A stretch of 34,969 nucleotides of DNA from an uncultured Ruminococcus sp. (GTDB lineage: Bacteria > Bacillota > Clostridia > RUG12999). Location: the NCBI GenBank assembly GCA_902784805.1, contig CACZWD010000039.1:1-34969 (forward strand). Reading direction: 5' to 3'. Under the pieces are notes generated by a model. The model worked only from the letters and a program-made list of their open reading frames with translations, ran no database searches and was not told the DNA's origin. Positions 9,176-34,214 of the stretch are shown piece after piece. Within the stretch, counting starts at the first letter, position 1. Every line of letters starts with the position of its first letter. The position numbers and the translations under genes were made by a program.

Positions 9176-9184
9176 CTCTTTTTT

Positions 9185-9457: not shown

Positions 9458-9503
9458 CTTACTCTCTCCTTAAAATAAGAGTTTACGGAAGACTTAAATT
9501 TTT

Positions 9504-9532
9504 ATTATGTCCCCCTTTATTATATTATTCAA
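9504..9532 (-). promoter_or_regulatory. Candidate sigma-A promoter of the DUF3343 gene
   Basis: TTGAAT (9532-9527) and CATAAT (9509-9504) are 17 bp apart on the minus strand, about 47 bp before the ATG. Each hexamer departs from consensus, so this is a moderate call. Confidence 0.5.
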
Positions 9533-9569
9533 ATATATTTACTTGGGTGTCACAAAAAAGAATATTATG

Positions 9570-9599
9570 TCATTTTTTGTCAGTAACAAAGCATATTAT
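9570..9599 (+). promoter_or_regulatory. Candidate sigma-E-type promoter of sigK
   Basis: TCATTTT (9570-9576), a 15-bp spacer and CATATTAT (9592-9599) resemble the mother-cell sigma-E pattern (TCATATT/CATACAAT), as expected for sigK from B. subtilis. The implied 5' leader is very short, because GAGGTG begins at 9608. It is a candidate only. Confidence 0.4.
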
Positions 9600-9618
9600 T
9601 CTAATATGAGGTGATTAT

Positions 9619-10344
9619 ATGATATCTGTGCTGCTTGCCTCCGTATGGGGCTTTCTTACAAACAATATTATCTTCTTCGCCTGCTACATAGGCTCAGGCA
9701 ATACCTTCCCGCCGCCGCTTTCAAAAGCTGAAGAAGCAAAGCTTATAACCATGCTTGACAGCGGCAGCAAAGAAGCCCGCGACAAGCTTATCGAGCATAA
9801 TCTCCGGCTTGTTGCTCATATCGCGAAAAAATATACCGTAGGCGGTCACGATGCCGATGATTTACTTTCAATCGGAACAATCGGGCTTATTAAAGGCGTT
9901 TCAAATTTCAGCTCAGCAAAAAAAACAAAGCTAAGCACCTTTCTTGCCAAATGCATACAAAACGAAATCCTTATGTATTTGCGTTCAGGCAAAAAACTGC
10001 GGCATGAAATCCTTTTAAGCAACGCTTTAGGCGGTGATTCCGAAGGAAACGAGCTTACCTTCAGCGATATTATTTCCGATGAAGACGAATCAGTGATAAA
10101 TGAGGTTGCTCATAACCTTCGTTTAAAGGCGCTTTATGACAAAATCGGCGATGTGCTGACGGAACGTGAAGTTTACATAATATCACGCAGATACGGACTT
10201 TTCGGCTGCGTGGAACAAACACAGAATGAAATTGCCGAAAGCCTTGATATAAGCCGCTCATATGTATCGAGAATTGAAAAAAAAGCGATTGAAAAGCTTC
10301 GGGAAGCTCTTGGTATTGAATTGCACAAAACAAAATCCGAATGA
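9619..10344 (+). CDS. sigK: RNA polymerase sporulation sigma factor pro-sigma-K
   Basis: This 241-aa sigma-70-family protein matches the late mother-cell sigma factor. The hydrophobic N-terminus MISVLLASVWGFLTNNIIFF corresponds to the B. subtilis pro-sequence that SpoIVFB removes, with cleavage probably near residue 22 before YIGSGNTF. Region 2 contains LIEHNLRLVAHIAKKY and DLLSIGTIGLIKG; region 4 contains the helix-turn-helix EIAESLDISRSYVSRIEKKA. GAGGTG lies 5 nt before the ATG. The reading frame is intact, with no skin-type interruption. It is the only plus-strand gene, divergent from the DUF3343 gene and convergent with tuf. Its presence implies a spore-former. Confidence 0.93.
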   Translation: MISVLLASVWGFLTNNIIFFACYIGSGNTFPPPLSKAEEAKLITMLDSGSKEARDKLIEHNLRLVAHIAKKYTVGGHDADDLLSIGTIGLIKGVSNFSSAKKTKLSTFLAKCIQNEILMYLRSGKKLRHEILLSNALGGDSEGNELTFSDIISDEDESVINEVAHNLRLKALYDKIGDVLTEREVYIISRRYGLFGCVEQTQNEIAESLDISRSYVSRIEKKAIEKLREALGIELHKTKSE

Positions 10345-10377
10345 TACACCACCTCTACAAAAGCACCTTAAAATACA

Positions 10378-10415
10378 TAAAAGCGAGCAACCAATAATTC
10401 GGTTACTCGCTTAAA
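10378..10415. terminator. Bidirectional terminator between sigK and tuf
   Basis: AAGCGAG pairs with CTCGCTT (10381-10387 with 10406-10412), continuing after one mismatch into AACC/GGTT. A-runs and T-runs flank the stem. It lies between convergent genes and can serve both. Confidence 0.8.
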
Positions 10416-10443
10416 TTTTACTTTTTAAACGTCCTGTTTAAAA

Positions 10444-11628
10444 TTATTCAACAATAGCTGTAACAATACCGGAACCTACTGTACGTCCACCTTCACGGAT
10501 AGCGAAACGAAGTCCTTCTTCCATAGCGATAGGTGTAATAAGTTCAACGGAAATCTCAACGTTATCGCCGGGCATACACATTTCTGTACCTTCGGGAAGT
10601 GTGATAACGCCAGTAACGTCAGTTGTTCTAAAATAGAACTGCGGTCTGTAGCTGTTAAAGAAAGGTGTATGACGTCCGCCTTCTTCTTTCTTTAATACGT
10701 AAACCTGTCCTTTAAACTTTGTGTGAGGATGAATTGAACCGGGAGCAGCAAGAACCTGTCCTCTTTCAATATCCTTTTTATCAATACCACGAAGAAGCGC
10801 ACCGATATTATCGCCTGCCTGTGCTTCGTCAAGAAGCTTTCTGAACATTTCGATACCGGTAACAACTGTCTTTCTTGTTTCTTTAATACCAACGATTTCA
10901 ACTTCGTCAGACATATGAAGAACACCTTTTTCAACTCTACCTGTTGCAACCGTACCACGACCTGTGATAGAGAATACGTCCTCGACAGGCATAAGGAACT
11001 TGTCGTCAACATCTCTCTTAGGTTCAGGAATATAGCTGTCAACAGCGTCCATAAGATCAAGTACACATTTGTACTCAGGAGCGTTCGGATCTGTTGATGT
11101 GGATTCAATAGCTGCAAGAGCAGAACCCTTAATAATCGGAATCTCATCACCCGGGAAATCGTACTCTGAAAGAAGGTCACGGATTTCCATTTCAACAAGC
11201 TCAAGAAGCTCTTCGTCATCTACCTGGTCAATCTTGTTCATGAAAACAACGATTGAAGGAACGCCAACCTGACGAGCAAGAAGAATATGCTCACGAGTCT
11301 GAGGCATAGGACCGTCTAGGATAGCACCGTCCATCTGAGCCGCACCTGTAATCATGTTTTTAACATAGTCAGCGTGTCCGGGGCAGTCAACGTGTGCATA
11401 GTGTCTCTTGTCTGTCTCATACTCAACGTGAGCTGTTGAAATTGTGATACCTCTTTCTCTCTCTTCGGGAGCCTTGTCAATCTGGTCATATGCTTCATAC
11501 TGAGCCTGACCTTTCATAGCAAGTACCTTTGTGATAGCTGCCGTAAGAGATGTTTTACCGTGGTCAACGTGACCGATTGTACCAATGTTAACGTGGGGCT
11601 TTGTTCTTTCAAATTTAGCTTTAGCCAT
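10444..11628 (-). CDS. tuf: Translation elongation factor Tu with a five-residue G-domain deletion
   Basis: This 394-aa GTPase delivers aminoacyl-tRNA to the ribosome. The P-loop GHVDHGKT, the G3 motif [12 protein letters not shown] and domains 2 and 3 are all present, through [15 protein letters not shown]. One oddity is clear. The nearly invariant [19 protein letters not shown] reads [14 protein letters not shown] here, so VVSAA, five residues of a core beta-strand, is missing between L104 and D105 (11316/11317). The cut is exactly 15 nt and stays in frame. It is either a sequence or assembly error or a compromised copy, since many Firmicutes carry two tuf genes. AAGGAGGA precedes the ATG. 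It is the last gene of the rpsL-rpsG-fusA-tuf transcript. Confidence 0.95.
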
Positions 11629-11692
11629 TTTAGTTTATCCTCCTTAATACATTTTTACTTTTTATAAGCTTTATTAATAATATAAATATTAT

Positions 11693-13801
11693 TTAATCTT
11701 TTTTAGCTCTGCCTGCAACGATAGTTTCCTGAATATTCTTGGGAACTGCTTCGTAGTGGCTCGGCTCCATTGAATAGTTACCGCGTCCCTGTGTTGCAGA
11801 ACGAAGGTCTGTTGCGTAACCGAACATTTCCGAAAGCGGAACAAACGCTTTGATTTCCTCCGCGCCGTTTCTTGCTTCCATACCCTGTATCTGTCCGCGG
11901 CGTGAGTTAAGGTCGCCTATAACATCACCCATATACTCCTCGGGAACAACAACGGTAATATCCATAATAGGTTCTTTCAGAATTGCGTTACCCTGACGGC
12001 AAGCATCCTTAAACGCCATTGAACCTGCTATCTGGAACGCTATTTCGGACGAGTCAACCTCGTGGTAAGAACCGTCGTAAAGCGTAACCTTAACATCTAC
12101 AACGTTATATCCCGCAAGTACACCGGACTGCATAGCGCCCTGAATACCTTTATCAACAGCGGGTATAAATTCCTTCGGAATTGCGCCGCCGACAACGGAA
12201 TTGACAAATTCATAGCCTTTACCTGCTTCAAGCGGTTCAACCTTCATCTTAACGTGAGCGTACTGACCGCTACCGCCGGACTGACGTTTGAATTTCTGTT
12301 CAACGTCAACAGCCTTTGTAATGGTTTCTTTGTAAGAAACCTGAGGCTTGCCGACATCAGCTTCAACTTTAAATTCACGGAGAAGTCTGTCAACTATAAT
12401 TTCAAGGTGAAGCTCACCCATACCGGCAATAATAGTCTGACCTGTTTCTTCATCGGTATAAGTTCTGAAAGTCGGGTCTTCCTCCGCAAGCTTTGCGAGT
12501 GCTATACCCATTTTTTCCTGACCTGCTTTTGATTTCGGCTCAATGGCAACACGGATAACAGGATCCGGAAATTCCATTGATTCAAGGATAATCGGGTTGT
12601 TCTCATCGCAAAGCGTATCACCTGTTGTCGTGTTTTTAAGACCGACTGCCGCAGCAATATCACCGGAATAAACGGTTGAAATTTCTGCTCTGTGGTTGGC
12701 GTGCATCTGAAGGATACGGCCAAGCCTCTCCTTTTTATCCTTTGTGGAATTAAGCACGTAAGAACCTGCGCTTACTGTACCCGAATACACACGGAAGAAG
12801 CAAAGTTTTCCTACATACGGGTCCGTCATAATTTTAAACGCGAGAGCTGAAAACGGCTCTTCATCGCTTGCGTGTCTCTCATGCTCCTCACCGCTGTCGT
12901 CGTTCGGAAGAACGCCCCTTATTGCGGGAATGTCAAGCGGAGAAGGCATAAAATCAATAATTGCGTCAAGAAGCTTTTGCACACCCTTGTTACGGTAAGA
13001 AGTACCGCAAACAACAGGCACAAGCTTAAGACTTATTGTAGCAGCTCTTAAAGCTTTCTTTATTTCGGCTTCGGTGATTTCCTCTCCCTCGAAATATTTG
13101 TTCATAAGCTCATCGTCTGTTTCTACAATTTCTTCCATCATACTGTCGTGATATTCCTGCGCCTTTTCTTTCATATCGTCCGGAATATCAATTTCGGAAA
13201 TATCTTCACCTTTATCATCATTATAAATGTAAGCTTTCATCTTAACAAGGTCGATAATTCCTTTGAAATCGTCTTCAGCTCCTATCGGAAGCTGAATGGG
13301 ACAAGGATTGCAATGCAACCTGTCTTTCATCATTTGTACAACATTATAGAAATCAGCTCCCATAATGTCCATTTTATTAATATAAGCCATACGTGGTACG
13401 CCATATTTGTCGGCCTGACGCCATACGGTTTCTGACTGCGGTTCAACACCGCCCTTAGCACATAAAACCGTAACCGAACCGTCAAGTACGCGAAGCGAAC
13501 GTTCAACCTCAACAGTAAAATCAACGTGTCCCGGTGTATCTATAATGTTTATGCGGTGCTCGGGATACTGATGCTCTGTTCCTGCCCAATGGCAAGTAGT
13601 TGCCGCGGAGGTGATTGTAATACCTCTCTCCTGCTCCTGTTCCATCCAGTCCATTGTTGCTTCACCGTCATGTGTTTCACCAATTTTATGGTTTACACCG
13701 GTATAGTAAAGAATACGCTCTGTTGTCGTAGTTTTACCTGCGTCAATATGCGCCATGATACCAATATTACGTGTAAGCTTAAGGGAATATTCTCTTCCCA
13801 T
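11693..13801 (-). CDS. fusA: Translation elongation factor G
   Basis: This 702-aa GTPase translocates tRNA and mRNA on the ribosome and helps recycle ribosomes. Domain I contains the P-loop [15 protein letters not shown], switch segment [18 protein letters not shown] and NKMD. Domain IV is recognisable from [19 protein letters not shown], and domain V continues to [19 protein letters not shown]. No truncation or missing motif was seen. AGGAGG lies 11 nt before the ATG. The gene sits between rpsG (39 bp upstream) and tuf (64 bp downstream), the standard str-operon order in Firmicutes. Confidence 0.98.
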
Positions 13802-18974: not shown

Positions 18975-22744
<3,770 letters not shown>

Positions 22745-23074
22745 TTTGTTCACCTCAATCAATAATATTGTATCCGAGATTCGCAATACGAAAAACCCTC
22801 TGATGTCAGATATAATGCTAACAGCACCTCCTGCTGTCATTTAGCATCACTTAACCCGTAAAAACGAATTCTTTTGCAGCCATGCTCGCTGCCCTGTCTT
22901 AACTTCAGCTATTAATATTGTTTCGCAAAAAAACGGCGGATACAGCGTAATCTTCGGTCTAAAGCCTGACCACAGCTCCGCAAGTTGTCGCATAAAACGA
23001 CAGAATATTTAAGGTGTAGTTTTTTCAATAATATATGATAAAACTTACCTTGCAATTGCGGAGATATACGCCAT
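22745..23074 (-). promoter_or_regulatory. Long structured 5' leader of rpoB
   Basis: About 330 nt separate the predicted start site from the rpoB ATG. In transcript order, stems include TGTCG/CGACA and GCGGA/TCCGC, the latter enclosing GGTC/GACC and followed closely by CG and T7, which is terminator-like. Further on, GCAGC pairs with GCTGC. A bulged hairpin follows, ATGCTAA/TTAGCAT with CAGCA/TGCTG, whose loop is GGAGG. No L10/L12 genes (rplJ, rplL) lie upstream, although they usually precede rpoB. I cannot assign it to a known RNA family by eye. Confidence 0.6.
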
Positions 23075-23080
23075 TTTATC

Positions 23081-23109
23081 ATTATACCACATATTTCCTA
23101 AAAAGTCAA
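23081..23109 (-). promoter_or_regulatory. Sigma-A promoter of rpoB-rpoC
   Basis: TTGACT (23109-23104), a 17-bp spacer and a perfect TATAAT (23086-23081) lie on the minus strand, with TGG before the -10 hexamer. A-rich tracts upstream could act as an UP element. Confidence 0.88.
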
Positions 23110-23140
23110 GCCCTCTTTTTTGTATATTTTTAGATAAAAA

Positions 23141-23205
23141 ATAAAGCAAAAAAATTATAAACAGCAATCAAACGTTTCTCTTTGCTTATAATTTTTTTGC
23201 TTTAT
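23141..23205 (-). terminator. AT-rich 20-bp inverted repeat, probable terminator
   Basis: ATAAAGCAAAAAAATTATAA (23141-23160) is the exact reverse complement of 23186-23205, with a 25-nt loop. T-runs follow on the minus strand. It lies just after the alpha/beta hydrolase stop and before the rpoB promoter, so it probably separates the two transcripts. Confidence 0.7.
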
Positions 23206-23219
23206 CTTTTTCTTAAAGC

Positions 23220-24032
23220 TTACTGGTTTTTTTCGGTAAAAAAATCGTACAATCTTTTTCTGAAATCCGGTGCCGTGTCATATAAGGCATGCCCGAAATT
23301 TTCGTATAAATGGTATTTAAAACCCGGTAAATTCCGAAATGTTTCAACAATCTCACGGATAGCACTTTCTCCAAAAATTTTGTCATCAACCGCGCCGACC
23401 GCAAAAATCGGACAGCGTATGTCTTCTGCGCTCAGCTTTGAATTATATCCTTTAACAGCCTCGGCAAGCGTTATGAACCGTCGCATCTCATTGTCTGTCA
23501 CAGCTTTTCCTGCCTCAATCAATGCCTGTCTATACTTCTCATAAATATCTGTAGGATAGATATTTTTCCCAAAATCAATATAAATTCCCGTGCCGTCCCT
23601 AGCTTTTGCTTTTTCTATCCAGCCTTTAATCACTGCAAATTGCCTTTCCGATACTTTTAGCGATGTTGAAGCAACAGCGACTTTTTTTATATTATCGGGA
23701 TAATGGGCAGCAAGTTCAAGAGCAATCATTCCTCCCTGTGAAGCCCCAAAAATGTAAACATCACGCAAACCGAGCGCTTTAATCGCAAGCGCTGTATCAT
23801 CAGCCATATCCTTAATTGAATAAGAAGACGGCAAAACCTTTCTCCTGTCAAAAACATACACGGTAAATTCATCTTTCATAACGCTATATTCATCGGATAT
23901 CGCCTCGGCGGCACCCATAACGCTTTGCACGCTGAGCCCCGGAAGAATTACAAGCGGCTTTTCACCTTTTCCGAAACGAAAAAAATCCATAATAAATTCG
24001 TTCACGCATACAGATTTAATTTTTATACTCAT
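23220..24032 (-). CDS. Alpha/beta hydrolase of RsbQ-like size
   Basis: This 270-aa cytoplasmic protein has the alpha/beta-hydrolase fold. The nucleophile elbow is GASQGG with S98, the acid is probably D216 or D217 in AVGAVDDKIFG, and the histidine is H248 in NFGHALYD. Length and triad spacing resemble B. subtilis RsbQ (269 aa), the hydrolase that activates the PP2C phosphatase RsbP. Many unrelated hydrolases share this layout, so the comparison is only suggestive. It lies 50 bp after the MATE-ATPase gene with AAGGGG 5 nt before its ATG and no clear promoter of its own. It is probably the last gene of the partner-switching operon. Substrate unknown. Confidence 0.85.
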   Translation of the reverse strand: MSIKIKSVCVNEFIMDFFRFGKGEKPLVILPGLSVQSVMGAAEAISDEYSVMKDEFTVYVFDRRKVLPSSYSIKDMADDTALAIKALGLRDVYIFGASQGGMIALELAAHYPDNIKKVAVASTSLKVSERQFAVIKGWIEKAKARDGTGIYIDFGKNIYPTDIYEKYRQALIEAGKAVTDNEMRRFITLAEAVKGYNSKLSAEDIRCPIFAVGAVDDKIFGESAIREIVETFRNLPGFKYHLYENFGHALYDTAPDFRKRLYDFFTEKNQ

Positions 24033-24082
24033 ATTTTCCCCTTTTTAATCAGTAATGAACCGTTTTGATTATTAAGAACTCT

Positions 24083-25858
24083 TTAAATTTTTATAAATAA
24101 ATTGTTCAATCTTAAAAAACTTGTATATCGGACATTTTTTGCCGTTCTGATAATCATACGCAAGCCTATATGGTGAGCGGGATCGTCATCAGAGTATAAT
24201 TTCAGCTGGCTGACCGGGTCAAAAATCAGACAGTCATCACGAATCCTTATTATGTAGTCTTCTCCTTTATGTATAATCCGCACATCAATGCTGTGATTTT
24301 TTTTATCTTTTGAAAAACCATGCTCTATCACGTTGCCCGCCATTTCCTCCACGGCAAGTGACATAAGATATTTGCGGCGGTCATCGCAGCCGTATGCTTC
24401 ACAGAAACCCCACACCTCCTGCGAAAGCTTTGCGACCTCGGTCATTGTCGTAATACTTCGGTCCATACAATCCTTCTCCGTTACATCAAAACTATCCGGC
24501 AAAAGAAGCACCTTTTGCCAGAATCCTTCCGGGCGAATGTTCAATCTGTGATTTTCCAAAAAAATTACCGCAATAAAATAAATTACCAAAAGCACCTGAG
24601 TGACCGGAAAAGCATACCACACAGCGTCAGCTCCAAGCAGACCTGCCATAATTCCCGCGGAAAGAATCATAAACCCGCACTCCGTTAAAAATCCCGAAAC
24701 CGCCGACAGACGGGTTCTTCCTATTCCGTGAATATAGTCCTGATAAATAAGATTCAGCCCGTGAAGCGGCATACCGATTGAATACGCCCTCACAGCACGG
24801 ATTGACATTTTAAGAGTTTCCGAATCGCCGTTAATAAACAATGCCGCAAACTGCGGAGCAAAAACCCAGCTTATAACAGATACTCCGAGTGTAAATATAA
24901 ACGTCGCCCGTACAGATGTAACAAGCAAGTGCTTCATCATAGGCCGGTCACCTTCGCCCGTCAGCACACCCGCAAGCGCAGAAACGGTATCCGCTATACC
25001 TGCCGCCATCGGTACAAGCAAGGCTTCGGCCTGCCCGTAAACCGAATACGCCGCAATTGCCGCGGAAGAAGCAATCACCGCCAAAAGACGGTTCATAAAA
25101 ATCCCTTTTATTGTATGCCCCAGCCGGTGTATTCCGGAAGGGACGCCTTCCTCCAGCAGTTCTCCCGTACACTTCAAAGAAATGTTTTTGAAGGAAAGCT
25201 TTAAAAAAGTGTTATGTCTGAAAAAATGTGTCATAAAAACAAGCAGCGCGGCTATATAGCTTATACTTGTAACCAGCCCCATTTCAAAAGTATCACCGTG
25301 AAAAACAAAAACAACGGCAAGGTCAAGCAGAATATTTGTGACAGTCATGACGGCGGAAGCAATAACCGGAAGTCCCCTGTTATTATCAATCGGTACAAAC
25401 GCCCACAATACCCATATAACGTTTCTTGCCGGGATACCTATCGCAATACCTATCATATAAGCCCGCGCCTTAGGAAGCAGCGCCGCGGCATTTCCTGTAG
25501 CACCAAGCATTCTTGTTATCGGGACCGAAAATACCAAGACTATTATAACCACAGCCGTAGCAATTCCTGCCGCAAGCGCGCAAGCGAGAGAAAACACGTT
25601 TTGTGCCTCTTTTGTCTTTCCGCTGCCCATAAGCCGTACAAAACGGCTCCGCGCGCCGTTGGCGAGGACAGCGCCGATTAACGCAAGAATGACCATAAGG
25701 GGATTTATGATTCCAAAAGCGGCTATGGAATCAACTCCAAGGTATTGACCTATTATGACACCGTCAATAAGCGAACCCAAAGAAGATGTAATGGCAGCCC
25801 CCACGTAAGATGCGAGCTGAACGTAAAATGTATTGCGAATAATTCTTCCGTTTTGCAT
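24083..25858 (-). CDS. MATE-family transporter fused to an RsbW-like HATPase domain
   Basis: This 591-aa protein begins with a MATE-type transporter (about 1-445) of about twelve hydrophobic segments, starting VQLASYVGAAITSSLGSLID. The C-terminus (about 460-591) is a cytoplasmic ATP-binding domain of the anti-sigma-kinase class. Its N box is LAVEEMAGNVIEHGF. The G1 box is degenerate (RIRDDCLIFDP instead of DxGxPFDP) and the G2 box is reduced to HHIGLRMI. Serine-kinase activity may therefore be weak or lost, leaving a binding domain. The gene is in the operon of STAS and PP2C genes, so STAS binding could gate transport, which is inference. GAGGAG lies 5 nt before the ATG. Ordinary MATE proteins lack this domain. 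Confidence 0.88.
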   Translation of the reverse strand: MQNGRIIRNTFYVQLASYVGAAITSSLGSLIDGVIIGQYLGVDSIAAFGIINPLMVILALIGAVLANGARSRFVRLMGSGKTKEAQNVFSLACALAAGIATAVVIIVLVFSVPITRMLGATGNAAALLPKARAYMIGIAIGIPARNVIWVLWAFVPIDNNRGLPVIASAVMTVTNILLDLAVVFVFHGDTFEMGLVTSISYIAALLVFMTHFFRHNTFLKLSFKNISLKCTGELLEEGVPSGIHRLGHTIKGIFMNRLLAVIASSAAIAAYSVYGQAEALLVPMAAGIADTVSALAGVLTGEGDRPMMKHLLVTSVRATFIFTLGVSVISWVFAPQFAALFINGDSETLKMSIRAVRAYSIGMPLHGLNLIYQDYIHGIGRTRLSAVSGFLTECGFMILSAGIMAGLLGADAVWYAFPVTQVLLVIYFIAVIFLENHRLNIRPEGFWQKVLLLPDSFDVTEKDCMDRSITTMTEVAKLSQEVWGFCEAYGCDDRRKYLMSLAVEEMAGNVIEHGFSKDKKNHSIDVRIIHKGEDYIIRIRDDCLIFDPVSQLKLYSDDDPAHHIGLRMIIRTAKNVRYTSFLRLNNLFIKI

Positions 25859-25911
25859 ATATACTCCTCGTTCTGTTTTATCCCGGCTTCTTTCGCTTTT
25901 CGCAAAATCTT

Positions 25912-27129
25912 TTATTTATTGTAAGCAAAAATTGTCAGAACTGCATAGAAAACCGCTGTGCCTCCAAGAATAAGCGCCTGTTTTACTCTGTGATTCACAA
26001 GAAGCCCCGCAAATTCGCGTACCGCCGCATTGGGCCAGAAATACCACTTTGTTTTTGCGCCCATACCTACCGCGCGCATCTTTACCCGCCTTGCGAAAAT
26101 ACCGCTGCGGAAAACATGATAATTTGTGGTCGAAAAAGCAATCTTGCCTTCGGGATTAATTTTCTGTATCTTTTCTTTCGAGAATTTCATATTTTCAAAG
26201 GTGTTTTTTGACCTGTCTTCCTCAATAATATTTTTTTCGTGAACGCCGCAATCAATAAGGCAGCGCTTCATCGCGGCACTTTCGGAAATTATTTCGTCAT
26301 CGCCTTTGCCGCCCGAGGTGATAAATATAAGGTCTTTTCCTGTCAGCGACTTCTGTTTTTCGTAAAAAGCGACCGCGCGCTCAACTCTGCCGCGCAGCAG
26401 CGGTGTCGGCGTACCGTCTTTTTTAAGACCGCAGCCGAGAATAATAAGAAAATCTATATTTTTTTCAGGCTCATAACGCGCTGTAACAGCACCTGCAACA
26501 ATAGTCCCTATAAGCATACATTCAAAATACAGGTAAAGAGACGCTAAAAAATTTGTTATAAGGTCGTGAAGCATTACTTCAAGCCGACTGCCCGATACCG
26601 CAAAGTCAAAGGTGAATATAAACACTTCTCCCGCAACAATAACAAACGAAAGGAAAATTCCGAGCAGGTTTACAAATCTCATTCCTTCGTGCCTTATCAG
26701 CGAAATATTGGAAAGACAGAGCGCTGCGAAAAATATAAGCAGAAAAGGTGATGAAATAAATATATAATTTTTTGCCGAGGTCAGCAGAGAACGGATAACT
26801 TCGTCTGCTCTGTATATTTCGGGATATTTAAATATACGGACCGCAAGGACAATATGCGTAATCATAACGGAAAATGCAAACAACGCAAATCCGAAATAAA
26901 TAATTGTATTGTAAGAATACGGATTGTAGCGAATCTGCTCACAAAATGAGTAAATAAGCGTAAATTCGGCAAAAAAACAATATGCCGCAATAAGCAAACA
27001 AACTGCCCCGATGTTTCCGGAGGGGCTGACTGTAATAAGCAATGCTGCGGCAATTAGTGATACGACTGTCAGAATCAGCAAATTAAAAAGTTTTGGTTTT
27101 TTATCTCTTGTATCAAATTTCAGAACCAT
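25912..27129 (-). CDS. DUF218 (YdcF-like) membrane protein
   Basis: This protein of about 405 aa has six or so N-terminal membrane segments (roughly residues 10-220), a DUF218 domain, and one more hydrophobic segment at the C-terminus. The domain starts FLIILGCGLKKDGTPTPLLR and contains ITSGGKG, SKNTFENMKFS and STTNYHVFRS. DUF218 proteins are associated with envelope metabolism (for example SanA/ElyC in E. coli), but biochemistry is largely undefined. The ATG at 27129 is chosen because GAGGGG lies 7 nt upstream; it overlaps the end of the HD gene by 17 bp. The tight overlap suggests a shared role with the HD and partner-switching proteins. Confidence 0.82.
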   Translation of the reverse strand: MVLKFDTRDKKPKLFNLLILTVVSLIAAALLITVSPSGNIGAVCLLIAAYCFFAEFTLIYSFCEQIRYNPYSYNTIIYFGFALFAFSVMITHIVLAVRIFKYPEIYRADEVIRSLLTSAKNYIFISSPFLLIFFAALCLSNISLIRHEGMRFVNLLGIFLSFVIVAGEVFIFTFDFAVSGSRLEVMLHDLITNFLASLYLYFECMLIGTIVAGAVTARYEPEKNIDFLIILGCGLKKDGTPTPLLRGRVERAVAFYEKQKSLTGKDLIFITSGGKGDDEIISESAAMKRCLIDCGVHEKNIIEEDRSKNTFENMKFSKEKIQKINPEGKIAFSTTNYHVFRSGIFARRVKMRAVGMGAKTKWYFWPNAAVREFAGLLVNHRVKQALILGGTAVFYAVLTIFAYNK

Positions 27130-27694
27130 TATGAATCCCCTCAAAAACCGTTTCCACCAGCCGGTTATATTCTGACCATGCTTCCGAGTCTTTCAGGTCT
27201 TCAACAAGAATGCAGACCGAACGGTAATACCATGCCTGCCATGCGGGGTCCTTTTGGTTAAAGGTTTCCCACATCGCGCTGCCCTCATTCTTCCACAGCC
27301 TGTAAAACGAACGCATATTTGATAACTTATCCGCAAGCCATAATATTTTTACGCCGATGTCGGAGGCTTGTTTTAACTTTTCGAGAGATTCCTTCTTACG
27401 GATACGCCAGCTTTCTTCGGGATTTGTTTCCGGACGCTTGTTTTCCGTTTCGGAGGCAACCAGCGCCGCCACGCGCGAACCGAAAACAGCCTCAATTTCC
27501 TCTATTGATGCATCGGTATCTTCAGCTGTATCGTGAAGAACCGCCGCCGCAAGAATCTCCGTATCATCCGTTAATGTTCCGGCAATTGCCGCCACCTCCA
27601 GGGGGTGAAGAATATATGGAATTTTTTCACGTTTACGCATCATACCACTATGTTTCTTTATAGCAAATTCCAGTGCGTTGTCAAACAAATTCAT
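27113..27694 (-). CDS. HD-domain hydrolase resembling SpoT/MESH1 (p)ppGpp hydrolases
   Basis: This 193-aa protein is a single HD domain without a synthetase domain. The metal-ligand set of SpoT-type hydrolases is visible: ILHPLEVA (H30), VLHDTAEDTD (H54, D55) and ILWLADKLSNMRS. Small proteins of this kind remove the 3'-pyrophosphate of (p)ppGpp, as in MESH1, but some act on other nucleotides, so the substrate is inferred. The domain ends near residue 130, and a Trp-rich helical tail follows. The gene starts 6 bp after the STAS-kinase-ATPase gene and overlaps the DUF218 gene, so it is firmly part of the operon. A weak AGAGG lies 12 nt before the ATG. Confidence 0.82.
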   Translation of the reverse strand: MNLFDNALEFAIKKHSGMMRKREKIPYILHPLEVAAIAGTLTDDTEILAAAVLHDTAEDTDASIEEIEAVFGSRVAALVASETENKRPETNPEESWRIRKKESLEKLKQASDIGVKILWLADKLSNMRSFYRLWKNEGSAMWETFNQKDPAWQAWYYRSVCILVEDLKDSEAWSEYNRLVETVFEGIHNGSEI

Positions 27695-27700
27695 ATTGAT

Positions 27701-29308
27701 TCAAAGCCTCTTTCTCAATATAAGAATATTCTGTCCGTCCCTGTGTTCGTAAAAAATTTCGTCCATAATTTTTTTTGTCATAAATATACCGACTCCGCCG
27801 ATTTGACGTTCATCTGCCGAAAGCGTTATATCGGGGTCCTCTTTTTCAAGGGGATTGTACGGAACCCCACGGTCGGCAAAGGTAATCTCTGCCGCGGAAG
27901 GCTCTCCCGATAATTTCACACTTACCGAAACTTTTCCGACGTCCGGCGCGTAAGCGTAGTTTGCGATATTTACAAATATTTCCTCGACTGCCAAATCTAT
28001 CTGCATAAGTTTTTTCGCAGAGCAATCGACTTTTTCAAGACGAGAGTTGATAAAGCCTATCACCTTCTGCAAATTATTAACGGAGGCTTCAATATCAAGC
28101 TCGTCGGAATCGCTTTTTTCACCGCAATTAATGTCAAATTCAAGAGAATCCACTCTCCGAAGAAGCTCTGTAAGTCTGTTTTGCCAAAGTGAAATCGTCG
28201 CGTTTTCGACCTCACTGTTATTGCCCGGATGACGTGTACGCCAATCAATAAGATATGCATATGACAAACAGCGGATTTTTTCCTCAATCTCACGGATTTT
28301 ATTTTCATCTTTTGTGTCAAAATAAGCCTCAAGAGTTTTGTGCCAAAACTCACCGGCAACATTGATATCATAGCCCTGAAACTTTAAAACAATTTCGGGG
28401 TCGTATTCGGCATATCCGATATAGGAGTTGTACATACGCAAAAACTCAAAAATCGGATGCCCCACGGAAAGTGTATCCATATCAATAAGCAACACCTCAT
28501 TATCGGCAATCACAATATTCTTTGTATGGAAATCACCATGCACCATATGATTACTTTCGGGAACAGCGTTTGCCATTCGCAGAAGCTTGTCGCCAAGACC
28601 GTCCGGCAGGCGGTCTTTCATTCTTTCAAGCGCTTTAAGTGTTTTTTCTTTTATCGACGGCAGTTTACCTTCAGGCACCGTAATACTGTGTATTTTTTTC
28701 AGCATTTTAACGTATTCCGCTACGCAAAAATCCATACGCTCCGGCTCTTTGGCAAGTATATTTGAAAAAGAACGGGCATTAAGAAGCTCAAAAACAGAGC
28801 CATAGCTGTCGCCGACCCTGACCACGTCATAAGATATTGCTGTCGGGACGCCGAGAATCAGTGCCAGCCGCGCCACTTCGCGCTCATGCTGAATTTCGGC
28901 AATCGCGTCGGCATTTTTATATGTCTTTACGACATTATCACGGTCGATACGGTAAACTTTTCCGTTAAAGCCCTCGCCGATAACCTCACAGCCCTCAACG
29001 GAAACAACAACCCGGTACGCCTTTTCCACCCGCATCATTTCGGTAAAACCCGTCATTTCCAGAATTTCATACACCTCTGTGCGGACATTTATAATTCTGA
29101 GGTCGGAATATATTTTTTTGACACGCAGTATTACACGTAATCCGGCGCTCGAAATATATTCCAAATGCTCCGCGTCCAGAATAACGGACGATGAGCCGCT
29201 GTCGGCAAGCTGCGCAAATATTTTTTTCTCTGTTTCCGCGGAATTTTCGGAATCAATCCTTCCTGACAATTTAACAGTGACATAATTTTTTTCTATTTTG
29301 TTTGTCAT
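27701..29308 (-). CDS. STAS / APH-like kinase / HATPase triple-domain protein
   Basis: This 535-aa soluble protein joins three domains. Residues 1-100 are a STAS anti-anti-sigma domain with LEYISSAGLRVIL; S54 aligns with the phosphorylated serine of SpoIIAA and RsbV. Residues 105-375 are an aminoglycoside/choline-kinase-like domain with the glycine-rich GEGFNGKVY, K128, the catalytic HGDFHTKN (257-264) and DMD (276-278). Residues 405-535 are an RsbW/SpoIIAB-like ATPase with VEEIFVNIANYAY, DRGVPYNP and GGVGIFMTKKI, all intact. It holds the switch substrate and its kinase in one chain with an additional small-molecule-type kinase. The ATG has AGGAGA 9 nt upstream. The kinase substrate is unknown. 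Confidence 0.9.
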   Translation of the reverse strand: MTNKIEKNYVTVKLSGRIDSENSAETEKKIFAQLADSGSSSVILDAEHLEYISSAGLRVILRVKKIYSDLRIINVRTEVYEILEMTGFTEMMRVEKAYRVVVSVEGCEVIGEGFNGKVYRIDRDNVVKTYKNADAIAEIQHEREVARLALILGVPTAISYDVVRVGDSYGSVFELLNARSFSNILAKEPERMDFCVAEYVKMLKKIHSITVPEGKLPSIKEKTLKALERMKDRLPDGLGDKLLRMANAVPESNHMVHGDFHTKNIVIADNEVLLIDMDTLSVGHPIFEFLRMYNSYIGYAEYDPEIVLKFQGYDINVAGEFWHKTLEAYFDTKDENKIREIEEKIRCLSYAYLIDWRTRHPGNNSEVENATISLWQNRLTELLRRVDSLEFDINCGEKSDSDELDIEASVNNLQKVIGFINSRLEKVDCSAKKLMQIDLAVEEIFVNIANYAYAPDVGKVSVSVKLSGEPSAAEITFADRGVPYNPLEKEDPDITLSADERQIGGVGIFMTKKIMDEIFYEHRDGQNILILRKRL

Positions 29309-29361
29309 AATTATTTCTCTCCTGTATAAATGCTAAAATATTAAATATCAAAAAAATATAT

Positions 29362-31083
29362 TTATTCTTCAATTTTTTTGTACTCCATACAAAGCATGGT
29401 CAAATCATCGAACTGCTCCGCGCTTTTTACAAACTCGTCAATAGCTGTATGCACATTTTTAAGTATTTGTTCGGGTGCCGCATTTGTATCTTTGTTGAGA
29501 GCCGAAAGCATACGTTCTTTTTCAAACATATTTCCTTGAGCATCTGTTGCTTCGGGCACTCCGTCGGTGTACAAAAATATCTTTGAACCCGGCTCAAGCA
29601 TCAGCTCATACTGCTTATACTTTATGCCGTCCATACCGCCGATTACAAAACCGTGAGTATCCTTTAACAATTCAAAAGCACCGCCGGGATTTTTTAATGC
29701 AGGGTATTCATGTCCGGCGTTTGCCGCCGTGAGCTTTCCGGTGGATATTTCCAGTATCCCCAGCCAGACCGTTACAAACATTTCTTCACGGTTATTGGAA
29801 CAAATCGCTGCGTTTGTATCGCTCAATATTTGTGCGGGGCTTTTGCCCATCATAGCATTGTTGGCGAGAATTATCTTGGTTGCCATCATAAACAGTGCCG
29901 CGGGGATACCTTTTCCCGAAACATCAGCTATAACCATACACAGATGATTGCTATCTATAAGGAAAAAGTCATAAAAATCGCCTCCGACCTCTTTTGCCGG
30001 ATCCATTGTTGCATAAATATCAAATTCAGACCTGTCCGGAAAGGCGGGATAGACGTTTGGAAGCATATCTGCCTGTATTCGGGTAGCAAGATTCAATTCC
30101 GTGGTAATTCGTTCTTTTTCTGCCGTTATTTTCGTCAGATTTTCCTCGTATTCGGAAAGAGACATCTCCATATCCGCCATAACAAGGCTAAGATTTTCCA
30201 CCTCGTCTCCGGTATGTATATCAAGTGATGCAAAACAGTTCGTGTCCTTAACTCCCGCGCTTCGTTCTTTCGCGTATTCCTGTGCGGCATTGGCAATCTC
30301 GTCAATCGGTTCCACCAATGTTTTTTTCATATGCCTTATCATCAAGAACGAAATAATCATAATTATCAGCAACATGGCAACAGTGACCTGCAGCGTGTAT
30401 GTACGTATACCTGTCAAAACATTATCTATTGTCACATCAACAAGCAGAAACGCACAAATTTTTCCCTTATCATTCCGTAGTGGCGTCCCTGCGGTACAAA
30501 TCCAGCCGTATTTATCGATATGCTCAATATCATAAAGCATACCTTCGCCGTTCCAATCCAAAAACTTATGCATCCCTTTTTCGTTTACCGGCTCCCATTC
30601 ACCGGGCAAAAGCCGGTCTTCTTCGTCGGGGTCAACAATATACACCATGGCGCTGTTTTCTTCATCATACATAGCAAGATAAACATCCGAAACATCTTCC
30701 GAACGGGTATAATTTGAAAGCATATTAATTAAAACAGTATAGTTTTTGGCGCTTTCAAATTCGGAAAATTCGGCACGATATTCAGCGGTGCCGGTTTTCA
30801 TACGTTTTTCCGCATTTAAGCTTTTGTATTTTTCCATAACCTCCTGCGCAAACGCAAGCGGATCTGCTCCATATGTTGCCGACATGGAGGCGTACTGCGA
30901 AATATAAAAAGCATGGTTTACATACTGCATTGTAAGTGAATAACTGTATAATCCCAAGCCGACTATCAGCATGACAATGCCGAGCAAAATACAGCCTAAC
31001 AGCGTCGCGCGAAATGTTTTTGCTTCAAGAGAATAGTGCTTTCGTTGTGCAGCACTCATTTCTCTGACTGTTTTTTCAGGCAT
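29362..31083 (-). CDS. Membrane SpoIIE/PP2C serine phosphatase with extracellular sensor and HAMP
   Basis: The protein is about 573 aa. A membrane segment (about 27-50) is followed by an extracellular domain (about 52-228) that looks Cache-like. A second membrane segment (about 231-250), a HAMP linker (about 251-310), a coiled coil, and a PP2C/SpoIIE domain (about 345-570) follow. Catalytic metal aspartates are visible in VGGDFYD (D369) and IADVSGKG (D387), with LYTDGVPEA and EQFDDLTMLC later. Such enzymes dephosphorylate STAS proteins, here probably the adjacent STAS protein and/or the fused one. The ATG at 31083 is preferred over a TTG at 31104 because GGAGG lies 6 nt upstream. It starts 13 bp after the STAS gene. 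Confidence 0.92.
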   Translation of the reverse strand: MPEKTVREMSAAQRKHYSLEAKTFRATLLGCILLGIVMLIVGLGLYSYSLTMQYVNHAFYISQYASMSATYGADPLAFAQEVMEKYKSLNAEKRMKTGTAEYRAEFSEFESAKNYTVLINMLSNYTRSEDVSDVYLAMYDEENSAMVYIVDPDEEDRLLPGEWEPVNEKGMHKFLDWNGEGMLYDIEHIDKYGWICTAGTPLRNDKGKICAFLLVDVTIDNVLTGIRTYTLQVTVAMLLIIMIISFLMIRHMKKTLVEPIDEIANAAQEYAKERSAGVKDTNCFASLDIHTGDEVENLSLVMADMEMSLSEYEENLTKITAEKERITTELNLATRIQADMLPNVYPAFPDRSEFDIYATMDPAKEVGGDFYDFFLIDSNHLCMVIADVSGKGIPAALFMMATKIILANNAMMGKSPAQILSDTNAAICSNNREEMFVTVWLGILEISTGKLTAANAGHEYPALKNPGGAFELLKDTHGFVIGGMDGIKYKQYELMLEPGSKIFLYTDGVPEATDAQGNMFEKERMLSALNKDTNAAPEQILKNVHTAIDEFVKSAEQFDDLTMLCMEYKKIEE

Positions 31084-31096
31084 AGCGCTCCTCCGT

Positions 31097-31396
31097 TTAC
31101 TCAATAGTCAAAATATCCGAAAATCCCGTAACTTCAAAAATCTCCTTTATTGTTTCGTTCACACGGCAAAGCTTCATTTTTCCCTGTCTGTTCATAGCTT
31201 TCTGTGCCAAAAGCAACACACGCAAACCCGCGGAAGAAATATATTCCAGCTTTTTGAAATCCAATATGAGTTCCGTAAGTCCCGGGAGCGCTTCACGTAT
31301 AACCTTTTCCATTTCCGGCGCCGTAACCGTATCCAGCCGCCCTTCAAGTGTCAGGACAGCCTTTGTGTTTTCGATTTTTTTGCTAATATTCAGCAT
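31097..31396 (-). CDS. STAS-domain anti-anti-sigma factor-like protein
   Basis: This single STAS-domain protein of about 99 aa resembles SpoIIAA, RsbV and BtrV. The motif LEYISSAGLRVLLLAQ contains the serine that RsbW-type kinases phosphorylate and PP2C phosphatases restore. It is nearly identical around this motif to the STAS domain of the fused kinase two genes downstream. The start is uncertain: ATG 31396 has AAAGGA 12 nt upstream, while ATG 31408 lies only 1 nt after it. The reading frame extends further upstream into the diguanylate cyclase gene but without a better site. Its partners are probably the two HATPase domains in this operon, because no separate RsbW is present. Confidence 0.88.
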   Translation of the reverse strand: MLNISKKIENTKAVLTLEGRLDTVTAPEMEKVIREALPGLTELILDFKKLEYISSAGLRVLLLAQKAMNRQGKMKLCRVNETIKEIFEVTGFSDILTIE

Positions 31397-31442
31397 TTTT
31401 ATATTCATTCCTTTCTGACGCACATATACGCAGCAAAATTCG

Positions 31443-32657
31443 CTACATCTGCTGTGCCATATCATTCAATAATTGTTTTCTCTCGTACATTTTTTTATCA
31501 GCCTGCTTAAAAACATCATTAAGGCTGCGGTCAATACCGGGGTAAAACTCTTTAAGTCCCGCGGCAATAATTACCGACCCGTTTTTAAGATTTTTTTCTA
31601 TCTGTATATTAAAGGACAATAAGAGCTCTTTTCGTTTGTTATAATCGGTACCTTCAAGAATTGCCGCAAATTCATCTCCGCCTATACGGTAAAGCGGGCT
31701 GTTTTTAAATATGTTGCAAATAAGCCTGCAAGCATCTTTAAGCAGCCTGTTTCCTGCCTCGTGTCCCAATGTATCGTTCGCAGTTTTAAGCCCGTTAAGG
31801 TCAAAAACAACAACGGCAAATTCCTTCATCACACCGTTTGCGATTCGCCTGTTTATACTTGTTTCCGCTTCGGAATAGGCGTGTAAGCTTCTGACTCCCG
31901 TAAGAGAGTCGGTATATGCCATATTCTTTACCGTTCCGAGCTCCTGTTTACGTAGCTGCTCCCGTTTAAGAAGCTTTTCAAGCTCTGTTCTGCGTTCTTC
32001 TTTTTCATCTTCCAAAACAAAGGTATGAATAATACAGGTGCCGAGTAAGTATCCGATTGCGTATAGCGGCAAAAGAGGATAAAATATCTGGGCAAAAATA
32101 AAAATTGTCATTGCAACGCAGTAAAAACCAATTGTTCTGTATCGGCGCCCTCTTCTGCTTTTTTTCTTTAAGCTGATGAAAAGCGTATATGCGGATATCA
32201 TTAAAAACAAGAGAATCTGAATAAACAAGTTTATATATCTCACTTTACCGGCATTATAAACACCGCTTTCATCGAAATAAAATAATATCGGATAAAAGAA
32301 ATTAACCGACAAAACGATTAATTCGCATACAAAATAAATTCGGCCGGTAAAGAACAATATTTTTCCAAATAAAAGTTTTTCATTCAGATATTCTATTACA
32401 TACTGCGTCAGCAAAAAAACCGACATAGCCATAGTTATAAAATAAATAACCGTATTAAAATAATTGATATATATAAGCTTGTGCTCGTACAGAATCCCCC
32501 ATAAAGTATCGGAAATATAGTAGCACATAACGCAATTCAAAAAATGACGATATGTTTTATTCGCGGATGATTCGTCTTTATTGCTGTTTCTTAAAACATC
32601 ATAATTAATTATAATATGTATAAGCAGAGCAATAATTCCAAAGCTTGAATACACCAT
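31443..32657 (-). CDS. Membrane diguanylate cyclase (GGDEF)
   Basis: This 404-aa protein has about seven hydrophobic segments in residues 5-215, a short coiled coil (about 217-240), and a GGDEF domain (about 245-400). The active site YRIGGDEF (326-330) is intact, and so are DSLTGVRSL and VFDLNGLKTANDTLGHEAG. It should make cyclic di-GMP from two GTP. The usual inhibitory RxxD site before GGDEF reads KNSP here, so product inhibition through that site is not expected. It is the first gene of the partner-switching operon, behind a consensus promoter. The multi-span sensor has no ligand I recognise. GGGAG lies 10 nt before the ATG, with a closer AGGA. Confidence 0.9.
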   Translation of the reverse strand: MVYSSFGIIALLIHIIINYDVLRNSNKDESSANKTYRHFLNCVMCYYISDTLWGILYEHKLIYINYFNTVIYFITMAMSVFLLTQYVIEYLNEKLLFGKILFFTGRIYFVCELIVLSVNFFYPILFYFDESGVYNAGKVRYINLFIQILLFLMISAYTLFISLKKKSRRGRRYRTIGFYCVAMTIFIFAQIFYPLLPLYAIGYLLGTCIIHTFVLEDEKEERRTELEKLLKREQLRKQELGTVKNMAYTDSLTGVRSLHAYSEAETSINRRIANGVMKEFAVVVFDLNGLKTANDTLGHEAGNRLLKDACRLICNIFKNSPLYRIGGDEFAAILEGTDYNKRKELLLSFNIQIEKNLKNGSVIIAAGLKEFYPGIDRSLNDVFKQADKKMYERKQLLNDMAQQM

Positions 32658-32727
32658 ATTCCTGCCACTCCCTAAAAACCAATCAGAACTTGCTTTACAA
32701 ATGTGTTTTTTTATTTCACAATTACAA

Positions 32728-32756
32728 ATTATATATCATAATTCAAAATATGTCAA
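32728..32756 (-). promoter_or_regulatory. Sigma-A promoter of the GGDEF/partner-switching operon
   Basis: A perfect TTGACA (32756-32751), a 17-bp spacer and a perfect TATAAT (32733-32728) lie on the minus strand, about 70 bp before the GGDEF start codon. It suggests vegetative expression. Confidence 0.88.
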
Positions 32757-32807
32757 CATTTTTTGTAATTTTTAAAAAAATCGCAGTATCTTGTTTTTTT
32801 AACGTAA

Positions 32808-32835
32808 TAATGTCCTCATTTTCAGGAGGACATTA
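32808..32835 (-). terminator. Hairpin after the LOG gene, possible terminator
   Basis: A perfect 10-bp stem TAATGTCCTC/GAGGACATTA with an 8-nt loop lies 9 bp past the LOG stop codon. The T-run is on the plus strand side; on the minus strand only TTACGTT follows. Termination of the LOG transcript is plausible but not certain. Confidence 0.55.
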
Positions 32836-32843
32836 AAATTTTT

Positions 32844-33428
32844 TTACTTTGCCGGCAAATTTTTCATATCTTCAACACGGATTTCCTTTGCCTCGTATTT
32901 CTCCAGCCAGTCAAGAAGGATGCCCGGAGCGTCAAATACTCTGAAAAGTTCAAGGCTTGCCTCGGACATAAAGCCTTGTTTCGCGGTTTTCACAAGCATT
33001 TTAACCATATCGTCATAATAGCCGTCAATATTATAAAGCGCTATTGCCTTTTTGTGTCTGGCAAGCTGTTTTAAAGTAAGCACTTCAAAAAACTCGTCAA
33101 ATGTTCCCACACCGCCGGGAGCAACAATAAAAGCTTCCGATTTCTCAAAGAGAATTCTTTTTCTTTCACCCATTGTTTCGGTATATATAAACTCATTGCT
33201 GTGCGGAAAAAGAATGCCGTCGGCGTTAAAAAACGAAGGAGCGACACCTATAATATAGCCGTGGTTTTCGTACATTCCTCTTGCAGCGGCGCCCATCATA
33301 CCTCCGATTCCGCCGCCGAAAACAAGAGTATGACCGCGCTGAGCCATTAACTTTCCGAGTTCCTCGGTTTTTTCAATATATATTTTTTTTATTTTATTGC
33401 TTGAAGCACCGTAAATACAAATATTCAT
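32844..33428 (-). CDS. LOG-family protein (putative nucleoside 5'-monophosphate phosphoribohydrolase)
   Basis: The protein is about 194 aa with a Rossmann-like lysine-decarboxylase-superfamily fold. MNICIYGASSNK, VFGGGIGGMMGAAARG and the signature PGGVGTFDEFFE are all present, which places it in the LOG (YvdD/TIGR00730) family. Characterised members cleave cytokinin or AMP-type nucleotides to base and ribose 5-phosphate. The bacterial role is often unclear, and old lysine decarboxylase labels should be avoided. The ATG at 33428 is chosen because AGGTGA lies 5 nt upstream. It follows the broken hydrolase by 5 bp and probably shares its transcript with proC. Confidence 0.88.
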   Translation of the reverse strand: MNICIYGASSNKIKKIYIEKTEELGKLMAQRGHTLVFGGGIGGMMGAAARGMYENHGYIIGVAPSFFNADGILFPHSNEFIYTETMGERKRILFEKSEAFIVAPGGVGTFDEFFEVLTLKQLARHKKAIALYNIDGYYDDMVKMLVKTAKQGFMSEASLELFRVFDAPGILLDWLEKYEAKEIRVEDMKNLPAK

Positions 33429-33433: not shown

Positions 33434-34214
33434 TCACCTATTTATATTTTTAATCCATCGTGCCGCTTCGTCAATCCACTTTGCGGCATACGGAATATCC
33501 ATTTCACTGTTTCCGCACGAGGTTATTTCGTTTGCAAGCGCAACACCGTGACAGCCCTCCGGATAAATATGCAGCTCGTAAGAAATGCCGTTATCGGTAA
33601 GCGCCTGCGCCATAGCAAGTGAATTATATACAGATACTACTGTGTCTGGTACTGTATGTACAAGAAACATCGGCACGGTTCTTTCGTCAACACAATTTTC
33701 AAGAGAATATTTTTCCAGCTGCTCCACTGTCGGATTTTCCGTACCGAGTATATTGTAAAAAGAGCCTAAATGAGCGCCCCTGACAACTCCTGAAATTACG
33801 GGATACACGGGAATAACGGCTTTCGGCTTATTATAGCCGTAAGGCATATCTGTCGCCTCGTAAATTTCCTTCATATGCCAAAGAGTACCGAGGCTTGCGC
33901 ATAAATGCCGCATCGGCATAAAAACGCTCCGCGTTATCCTTAATATATTTCATTGCTTTTGAAGCTTCAATAAGCGGTTTCGGGAAAACGGCTTTTTCTT
34001 TAACCGAATAGTGCAGTACAAAAGCGTTAAAACCCTTTGCCGCAAAAGCAAGCGCGACAGGTTCGCCTTCACGGTCACTGCATACCTCCGAATAGCCGCC
34101 GCCCGGAATTACAAGTATTGAATCCTTTATTCTTCCGTAAATATCATCGGGAACATAAGTTTCAAGAAACACATTTTCATCATTTTCATCTAAACGTATT
34201 TTTTCATAAATCAT
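33434..34214 (-). pseudogene. Alpha/beta hydrolase (acetyl-esterase-like), broken by an internal deletion
   Basis: Two overlapping frames encode the halves of one esterase-like alpha/beta hydrolase. The 5' half (from ATG 34214) has the oxyanion motif VIPGGGYSEV and runs to KYIKDNAERF. The 3' half has HLCASLGTLWHM, the acid-site segment HTVPDTVVSVYNS and the histidine segment PEGCHGVALA. The family usually has about 16 residues including GFSAGG between AERF and HL. Here only 13 bases remain, a loss of about 35 nt near 33905-33930 that removes the catalytic serine motif and shifts the frame. No active product is expected. It lies between proC (14 bp) and the LOG gene (5 bp), so the rest of the operon may still be transcribed. 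Confidence 0.85.

Follow-up and report, generated by a model that had tools for sequence, protein, structure and literature searches.

What does a partner switch control when no sigma factor accompanies it? The question is raised by an operon in contig CACZWD010000039.1 of an uncultured Ruminococcus sp. (assembly GCA_902784805.1), whose 34,969 nucleotides, hereafter the window, make up one entire contig of a genome of 1.67 Mb, with an estimated completeness of 84%. Partner switching is mainly known for the freeing of a sigma factor. Eight genes, all on the minus strand from 32657 to 23220, encode in order of transcription a GGDEF protein, a STAS protein, a PP2C phosphatase, a STAS-APH-HATPase fusion, an HD_4 hydrolase, a DUF218 protein, a MATE-HATPase fusion and an alpha/beta hydrolase. 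An earlier note, made from the letters of the window alone, had proposed that they form a partner-switching operon, and its inventory of eight genes with named domains, among them two STAS, two HATPase and one phosphatase, was confirmed by the open reading frames (ORFs) and Pfam, with each named domain of the eight proteins scoring over its curated cut-off. As that note had also stated, Pfam detects neither a sigma factor nor a stand-alone RsbW in the operon, where both HATPase domains are fused to other domains. The analysis described below reveals a real, conserved and sigma-free partner-switch module, the likely outputs of which are a kinase paired with an 'eraser' hydrolase and a transporter.

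Components of the switch

The central component is the fused protein encoded at 27701-29308, in which Pfam delimits a STAS domain (residues 6-96), an APH domain (108-306) and an HATPase_c_2 domain (407-533). Sequence profiles relate the two ends of this protein to SpoIIAA/RsbV and to RsbW, respectively, and its APH part scores over the cut-off of PF01636 and reaches 106.8 bits against the APH-like family TIGR02172, whose cut-off is 228.2. The AlphaFold model of the whole chain (predicted local distance difference test, pLDDT, 82.5; predicted template modelling score, pTM, 0.58) is confident for the domains and not firm for their arrangement. Two further switch components are encoded upstream. 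The SpoIIE-type PP2C phosphatase (29362-31104; PF07228, E 2.2e-48, residues 385-575) carries a poorly conserved N-terminal part that resembles a membrane sensor, and the stand-alone RsbV/SpoIIAA-like STAS protein (31097-31396; PF01740, TIGR00377) is encoded in an ORF that opens at 31465. Because most of its relatives measure 98-99 aa (amino acids), this STAS gene probably starts near 31396 and therefore need not overlap the GGDEF gene; given this start, intergenic gaps range from -32 to 53 bases and the close spacing described earlier holds.

The residues that were checked in the four families, which we take to be the catalytic ones, are intact in the relatives of these proteins. The switch serine, whose position was matched by eye to the phospho-acceptor of SpoIIAA, is kept in 44/44 aligned stand-alone STAS proteins and in 41/41 STAS-APH proteins. 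The Glu, Asn, Asp, Gly and Gly of the HATPase N, G1 and G2 boxes are intact in the 39/39 STAS-APH proteins having the domain, and the His, Asp, Asn, Asp, Asp and Lys of the APH part are invariant (41/41). The six metal-binding Asp positions of the PP2C are occupied in 34, 30, 34, 33, 34 and 34 of 34 sequences.

Recurrence and gene company across Clostridia

Scanning a one-genome-per-species collection with the fused protein yielded 53 related loci, many of them from rumen or omasum according to their titles. The APH part was found in loci of 40 other species (L018-L057), of which 38 also carry the HATPase in that protein (one locus is cut by a contig end). Together with the window and a genome of the same genus, G008 (L080), they make up the 42 APH loci considered hereafter. 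Neighbourhood counts refer to same-strand genes within 6 kb of the APH gene found with twelve models, and neighbouring genes were called by codon scoring, since shadow ORFs make calls by ORF length unreliable in loci of high G+C content. Absence of co-occurrence beyond the genome had been set beforehand as one of the outcomes that would refute the proposal, but co-occurrence was found: a stand-alone STAS gene lies near the APH gene in 31/42 loci and a PP2C gene in 26/42. Switch parts joined to a kinase and a transporter are shared by some 40 clostridial species. A single locus (L023) has a sigma-70-type gene nearby, a count obtained with a model built from six sigma-70-type proteins that covers extracytoplasmic function (ECF) types poorly and that most ECF sigma factors would escape. 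In the 20 loci whose sequence extends 6 kb or more in both directions, STAS is present in 18, PP2C in 13, a PHP or HD hydrolase in 15 and sigma in 0. In the 211 kb of these loci lying beyond 6 kb from the APH gene, the window's sigma gene is the one match to the twelve models. Less frequent companions are psW (12/42), DUF218 (11/42), the MATE-HATPase (8/42) and the alpha/beta hydrolase (4/42), the window being included in the counts of DUF218 and alpha/beta hydrolase.

The distribution of the module is patchy. The fused gene occurs in 2/9 genomes of the window's own family and in 6/391 genomes of a class-wide draw, in which several fetched stretches end at contig ends; another 15/391 genomes of this draw encode STAS-APH without a fused HATPase, some of them cut by contig ends. 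A different arrangement of the same parts was observed in L055, L115-L120 and L122, where a free-standing STAS-APH protein of 389-413 aa faces a PP2C that carries the HATPase on its C-terminus. STAS-APH is therefore the part on which the kinase/phosphatase pair would act. The separation of STAS-APH and HATPase in L053 was not counted as a split, as the reading frame changes there and may reflect an assembly error.

The companion psW, of ~200 aa and encoded beside the STAS gene in those 12 loci, has no Pfam match in the three members tested, and its sequence profile matches those of the HATPases (probability 19.6) and the MATE-HATPase (12.3) weakly. However, the model of one member (pLDDT 75.7, pTM 0.73) has SpoIIAB as its top match in the PDB, with RsbW and other anti-sigma factors also high. 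The Asn of the N box is replaced by Met or Leu in 13/13 aligned members, and on the predicted fold psW probably serves as a docking protein without kinase activity. The window's genome gave no match to it (84% complete; no positive control). Genes for psW were observed beside a STAS or PP2C gene in L020, L022, L027, L035, L039, L040, L043, L049, L051, L054, L056, L060, L080, L111, L119, L122 and L157.

A hydrolase slot shared by two folds

The most constant neighbour of the kinase is a nucleotide-hydrolase gene, located within 450 bases of the APH gene in 34/42 loci and belonging to the PHP type in 30 and to the HD type in 4, never to both. A STAS gene intervenes in L045 and the PHP gene lies upstream in L040. 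In the window the slot is occupied by an HD_4 protein resembling MESH1 and the SpoT hydrolase (27113-27694; PF13328, E 3.9e-23), in which an HD..ED motif, read from the sequence, is present and no synthetase accompanies it; its closest PDB relative is Lmo0812, with MESH1 among the next. The PHP protein of L051 is nearest to 3',5'-nucleoside bisphosphate phosphatase (129 bits, under the model cut-off of 400) and has 3e0f and 2yb1 as PDB relatives. PHP was not found in the window's genome, a search with no positive control in an 84% complete assembly.

The relationship between both types was addressed in an APH tree of 65/67 domains, from which two genes with <200 aligned residues were left out and whose bootstrap had not settled. 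The HD label needs 6 changes on this tree, at least 4 of them forced by well-supported branches. Loci of the HD type fall within well-supported groups of the PHP type, the window with L019 (99/95) and L047 with L049-L051 (99/97), and the slot has therefore been exchanged between two unrelated folds. HD genes also adjoin STAS-APH in L115, L119 and L120. Furthermore, L181 and L182 (2/391 class genomes; Pfam match for L181) combine in one protein an HD_4-type domain and an APH of this family, without STAS, so that the hydrolase is linked to the kinase independently of gene order. As a side observation, the place of the hydrolase after the fused gene is taken in L046 (11623-12495) by a radical SAM protein of Rv2578c/PA0069 type.

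In the available parts of the sources, a bacterial enzyme of the HD kind is described to hydrolyse (p)ppGpp, pppApp and NADPH (PMC9765508), and MESH1 is reported to take off the 3'-phosphate of CoA (PMC13221220). The chemistry common to HD and PHP would be an action on ribose 2'/3'-phosphates. The mutually exclusive occupation of the slot offers a direct route to the substrate of the kinase, the product of which should be hydrolysable by both an HD and a PHP enzyme.

A transporter with its own HATPase

The MATE protein of the window (24083-25858) matches PF01554 in two stretches (87.3 bits), stays under the cut-off of TIGR00797 (91.8 bits; cut-off 147.4) and ends in an HATPase_c_2 domain (PF13581, residues 473-579), whose profile matches those of the other HATPases with a probability of 97.2. 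The class draw contains this fusion in 20/391 genomes, at 26 places, and a STAS, PP2C, psW or HATPase gene (fused ones included) lies within 3.5 kb on the same strand at 14 of the 26, often as the next gene. By comparison, ~208 kb of class loci situated >6 kb from APH or MATE-HATPase genes contain four switch genes, two of which belong to a locus fetched for its HATPase. In the genome G185 (L130) 68 bases separate the end of the MATE-HATPase gene from the STAS-APH gene that follows, and no other switch gene was detected in the 7-9 kb fetched on each side. Because of this company at 14 of 26 places and of the neighbours in G185, the transporter is probably a client of the partner switch in its own right.

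Proposed mechanism and points against it

The reading that we favour, with a probability of about 0.5, is that of a sigma-free partner switch gating an APH-type kinase that is paired with an eraser hydrolase, the MATE-HATPase being a second client. The PP2C would sense a signal and dephosphorylate the STAS protein, the STAS domain of STAS-APH-HATPase, or both, and the HATPase domain would rephosphorylate STAS. Unphosphorylated STAS would then dock on the HATPase and change the state of the kinase on the same chain, which would constitute the main output. The neighbouring hydrolase, HD in the window and PHP in most relatives, may take off what the kinase adds or act on the same metabolite. Finally, the HATPase of the MATE protein might serve as a second docking site, through which transport would be set by the same STAS state. 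We infer in this scheme the direction of control, the binding partners, the substrate of the kinase and a substrate common to kinase and hydrolase.

Several observations weigh against this proposal. For eleven of 25 APH genes from the class draw, the 6 kb around them hold no STAS, PP2C, psW or HATPase gene of the same orientation, and L121 and L123-L129 show no switch gene detectable by the models used. The hydrolase is not constant either, as 8/42 loci have no adjacent PHP or HD gene (two of these end within 420 bases downstream), and among 25 class-draw APH genes outside the window's genus PHP is adjacent in 2, HD is adjacent in 3 and fused in 2, and neither is present in 18. Loci with the HD label show partial clustering on the APH tree, with 4/500 shuffles as low, and the hydrolase of the L182 fusion is missing one acidic residue of the HD..ED motif. 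Regarding the transporter, 12 of its 26 genes have no same-strand switch gene at a distance of up to 3.5 kb, and leaving out the four rows used for model building reduces the places with a switch gene nearby to 10/22. In addition, the G1 box of the MATE HATPase carries Cys for Gly in 13/13 sequences, and the domain may therefore bind ATP differently or not at all.

A more specific version of the favoured scheme can be formulated. HD/MESH1 enzymes and PHP 3',5'-nucleoside bisphosphate phosphatases would have a common target in the phosphates or pyrophosphates at the 2'- or 3'-position of ribose. The STAS-gated kinase would accordingly be expected, under this version, to phosphorylate a nucleotide-type ribose, the adjacent HD or PHP enzyme would remove that phosphate, and the MATE-HATPase transporter would be set by STAS docking. 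Taken in all its details this version is improbable. If true, such writing and erasing of a small phosphorylated molecule would represent a new circuit of uncultured gut Clostridia, serving as a second-messenger system or for cofactor control.

Alternative explanations

The alternative that survives best, itself unlikely, is that of a regulated cluster for envelope or drug protection, in which an envelope signal would reach MATE efflux, the APH-like kinase, DUF218 and, in relatives, a D-Ala-D-Ala dipeptidase through the PP2C. In 7/42 loci (L018, L019, L021, L031, L032, L036 and L054) genes for such a dipeptidase (Peptidase_M15) are found at distances of 0 to 6.3 kb to the fused gene, and DUF218 accompanies the switch in the 11 loci mentioned above. 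Among the matches listed by Foldseek for the model of the fused protein, the best ones are APH(2''), Cph001, AmiN, methylthioribose kinase and maltokinase, all of them kinases of small hydroxyl compounds. The antibiotic kinases at the top would fit with drug protection, but the listed matches also include methylthioribose kinase and maltokinase and therefore indicate the fold and not the substrate. Moreover, strict anaerobes hardly need aminoglycoside kinases, the conserved adjacent gene is of the nucleotide-hydrolase type instead of a resistance gene, and a known defence system was discarded, as none of 10 proteins had a match in the PADLOC library at E 1e-5.

Next comes an ordinary sigma switch, in which the HATPases of the operon would bind a sigma factor encoded elsewhere; this we consider rather doubtful. 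Unlinked partner switches are known in general, and the genome offers candidates, with 10 Sigma70_r4 places (some resembling other helix-turn-helix proteins by eye), one of them in the window itself at 9619-10344, on the other strand and ~12.9 kb from the operon. The same genome has five HATPase_c_2 places, namely SpoIIAB next to SigF, a short protein in a stretch of hydrogenase-type genes (L006, G000:C23:28634-28984), a sub-cut-off protein resembling a sensor kinase and the two of the operon, neighbours being judged by eye. The linked SpoIIAA-SpoIIAB-SigF operon on contig C13 implies that the sporulation switch exists separately, so sigma-F has its own partners. Against an unlinked sigma factor also stand its near absence from the related loci (1/42, with the weakness for ECF types already noted) and the covalent attachment of the HATPase to kinase, phosphatase or transporter in the relatives.

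Still less probable is that the switch controls a diguanylate cyclase through binding of STAS to the GGDEF protein (31443-32657; PF00990, E 2.9e-18, residues 247-395). The gene is the first of the operon, its diguanylate cyclase-like motif is intact, and three described systems, SiaABCD, HsbA-HsbD and BgrV-BgrR, work in this manner according to the accessible parts of PMC7647112 and PMC8457831. However, no more than 3/42 loci (the window, L028 and L038) have a same-strand GGDEF gene at a distance of up to 6 kb, and in a single-sequence search neither of the other two proteins matched the N-terminal part of the window protein at E 1e-5. A fuller homologue of the latter is encoded in L028 on the opposite strand. 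The GGDEF gene is probably a local addition, and its rarity near the switch makes it an unlikely core output, for which reason it was discarded as the conserved one. The former proposal that the outputs are encoded in the operon itself is supported as probable, with the exception of this protein.

Finally, a loose neighbourhood of unrelated genes travelling together in a few related rumen metagenome-assembled genomes, suggested by the many loci from rumen surveys (by title), the variable gene order and the optional presence of DUF218, MATE and alpha/beta hydrolase, is very improbable in view of the one-genome-per-species sampling, the hydrolase in the same slot in 34/42 loci, the fusions and splits and the nearly empty far flanks.

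Promoter, remaining genes and surroundings

A putative promoter, TTGACA-17-TATAAT, lies at 32728-32756 on the minus strand, with its end 70 bases ahead of the start codon of the first gene. It matches the sigma-70 consensus, on which its prediction is based, at 12/12 positions and is the best on both strands of 22800-33000. The next strong match on the minus strand (11/12) is past the last operon gene, ahead of rpoB, and a 10/12 match falls inside the MATE gene. As a class, promoter-like sites hardly exceed chance in this region (32 found versus 24.6 expected from shuffling).

The DUF218 protein is encoded at 25912-27144 (PF02698, E 3.2e-24) and the alpha/beta hydrolase at 23220-24032 (PF00561, E 2.6e-16). 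For the latter, the idea of an RsbQ was set aside for want of family support beyond size; the partner type of RsbQ would be a PAS-PP2C (RsbP), and Pfam gives no PAS match in the window PP2C at E 0.01. A phage or plasmid origin of the locus was likewise rejected, with no phage match and nine plasmid records showing partial domain matches, none covering 80%. Beyond the operon, rpoB (18975-22840) is divided between two ORFs (20984-22840 and 18975-20861), probably as a result of an assembly frameshift or a natural break, and an alpha/beta hydrolase-like gene at 33434-34214 likewise consists of two overlapping ORFs.

Other neighbours were observed in the relatives. STAS-APH genes adjoin tyrosine-phosphatase-like genes in L121, L123, L027 and L125, where two of each alternate (8167-12415); Pfam Y_phosphatase3 was confirmed for one gene each in L125 and L027, the others being judged by eye. 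In L061, L063 and L070, STAS/HATPase genes lie near a gene of the alpha-acetolactate decarboxylase type (k17 cluster).

Comparison with known systems

The sigma switches RsbU/V/W and SpoIIE/AA/AB use the same STAS, HATPase_c_2 and PP2C families with the same catalytic residues. Unlike in them, the switch described here has no linked sigma factor or stand-alone RsbW, and its kinase domain is fused to STAS-APH or to MATE. Kinase and phosphatase are joined in SypE of Vibrio fischeri, an arrangement comparable to that of the PP2C-HATPase relatives. To our knowledge, the SypA-SypE pair includes no APH, hydrolase or transporter. Its likeness to the present module consists, in the accessible part of PMC10120452, in a STAS protein acting with a serine kinase. 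The small alarmone hydrolases and MESH1 share with the window an HD_4 hydrolase of ~190 aa with an HD..ED motif (PMC9765508, as far as the source is available), whereas here the hydrolase shares its operon with a kinase, to which the HD domain is fused in two relatives.

Sigma-free partner switches that set diguanylate cyclases have been described, namely SiaABCD, HptB-HsbR-HsbA-HsbD and BgrSTUWV-BgrR (PMC7647112, PMC8457831), reported in a few proteobacteria according to the available part of PMC8457831. Because of them, the class of sigma-free switches is not unknown, and the earlier view that the composition is undescribed requires correction to that extent. In Pseudomonas aeruginosa, SiaABCD likewise combines a PP2C and a kinase with a diguanylate cyclase and a switch protein resembling STAS, and its output is the cyclase instead of a sigma factor (PMC7647112, PMC8457831, in part). 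In contrast, SiaC belongs to DUF1987 while the switch proteins here match PF01740 STAS; the APH kinase, the hydrolase slot and the MATE-HATPase are not named in the accessible text on that system. The window PP2C scores 65.4 bits against the SiaA equivalog NF038263, whose cut-off is 700, and the co-encoded cyclase that is conserved in SiaABCD accompanies the present module in the window and in just 3/42 loci overall. In HptB-HsbR-HsbA-HsbD and BgrSTUWV-BgrR a STAS protein of a partner switch also sets a diguanylate cyclase (PMC8457831, in part), whereas here the cyclase is not conserved and the conserved output candidate is the kinase. A search of the open PMC library, outside the coverage of which most subscription papers fall, found no literature on combinations of STAS-APH, MATE-HATPase or TIGR02172. 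The kinase/eraser and MATE outputs seem new for a partner switch, and if our reading is correct, enzyme gating and transport would join the outputs of partner switching.

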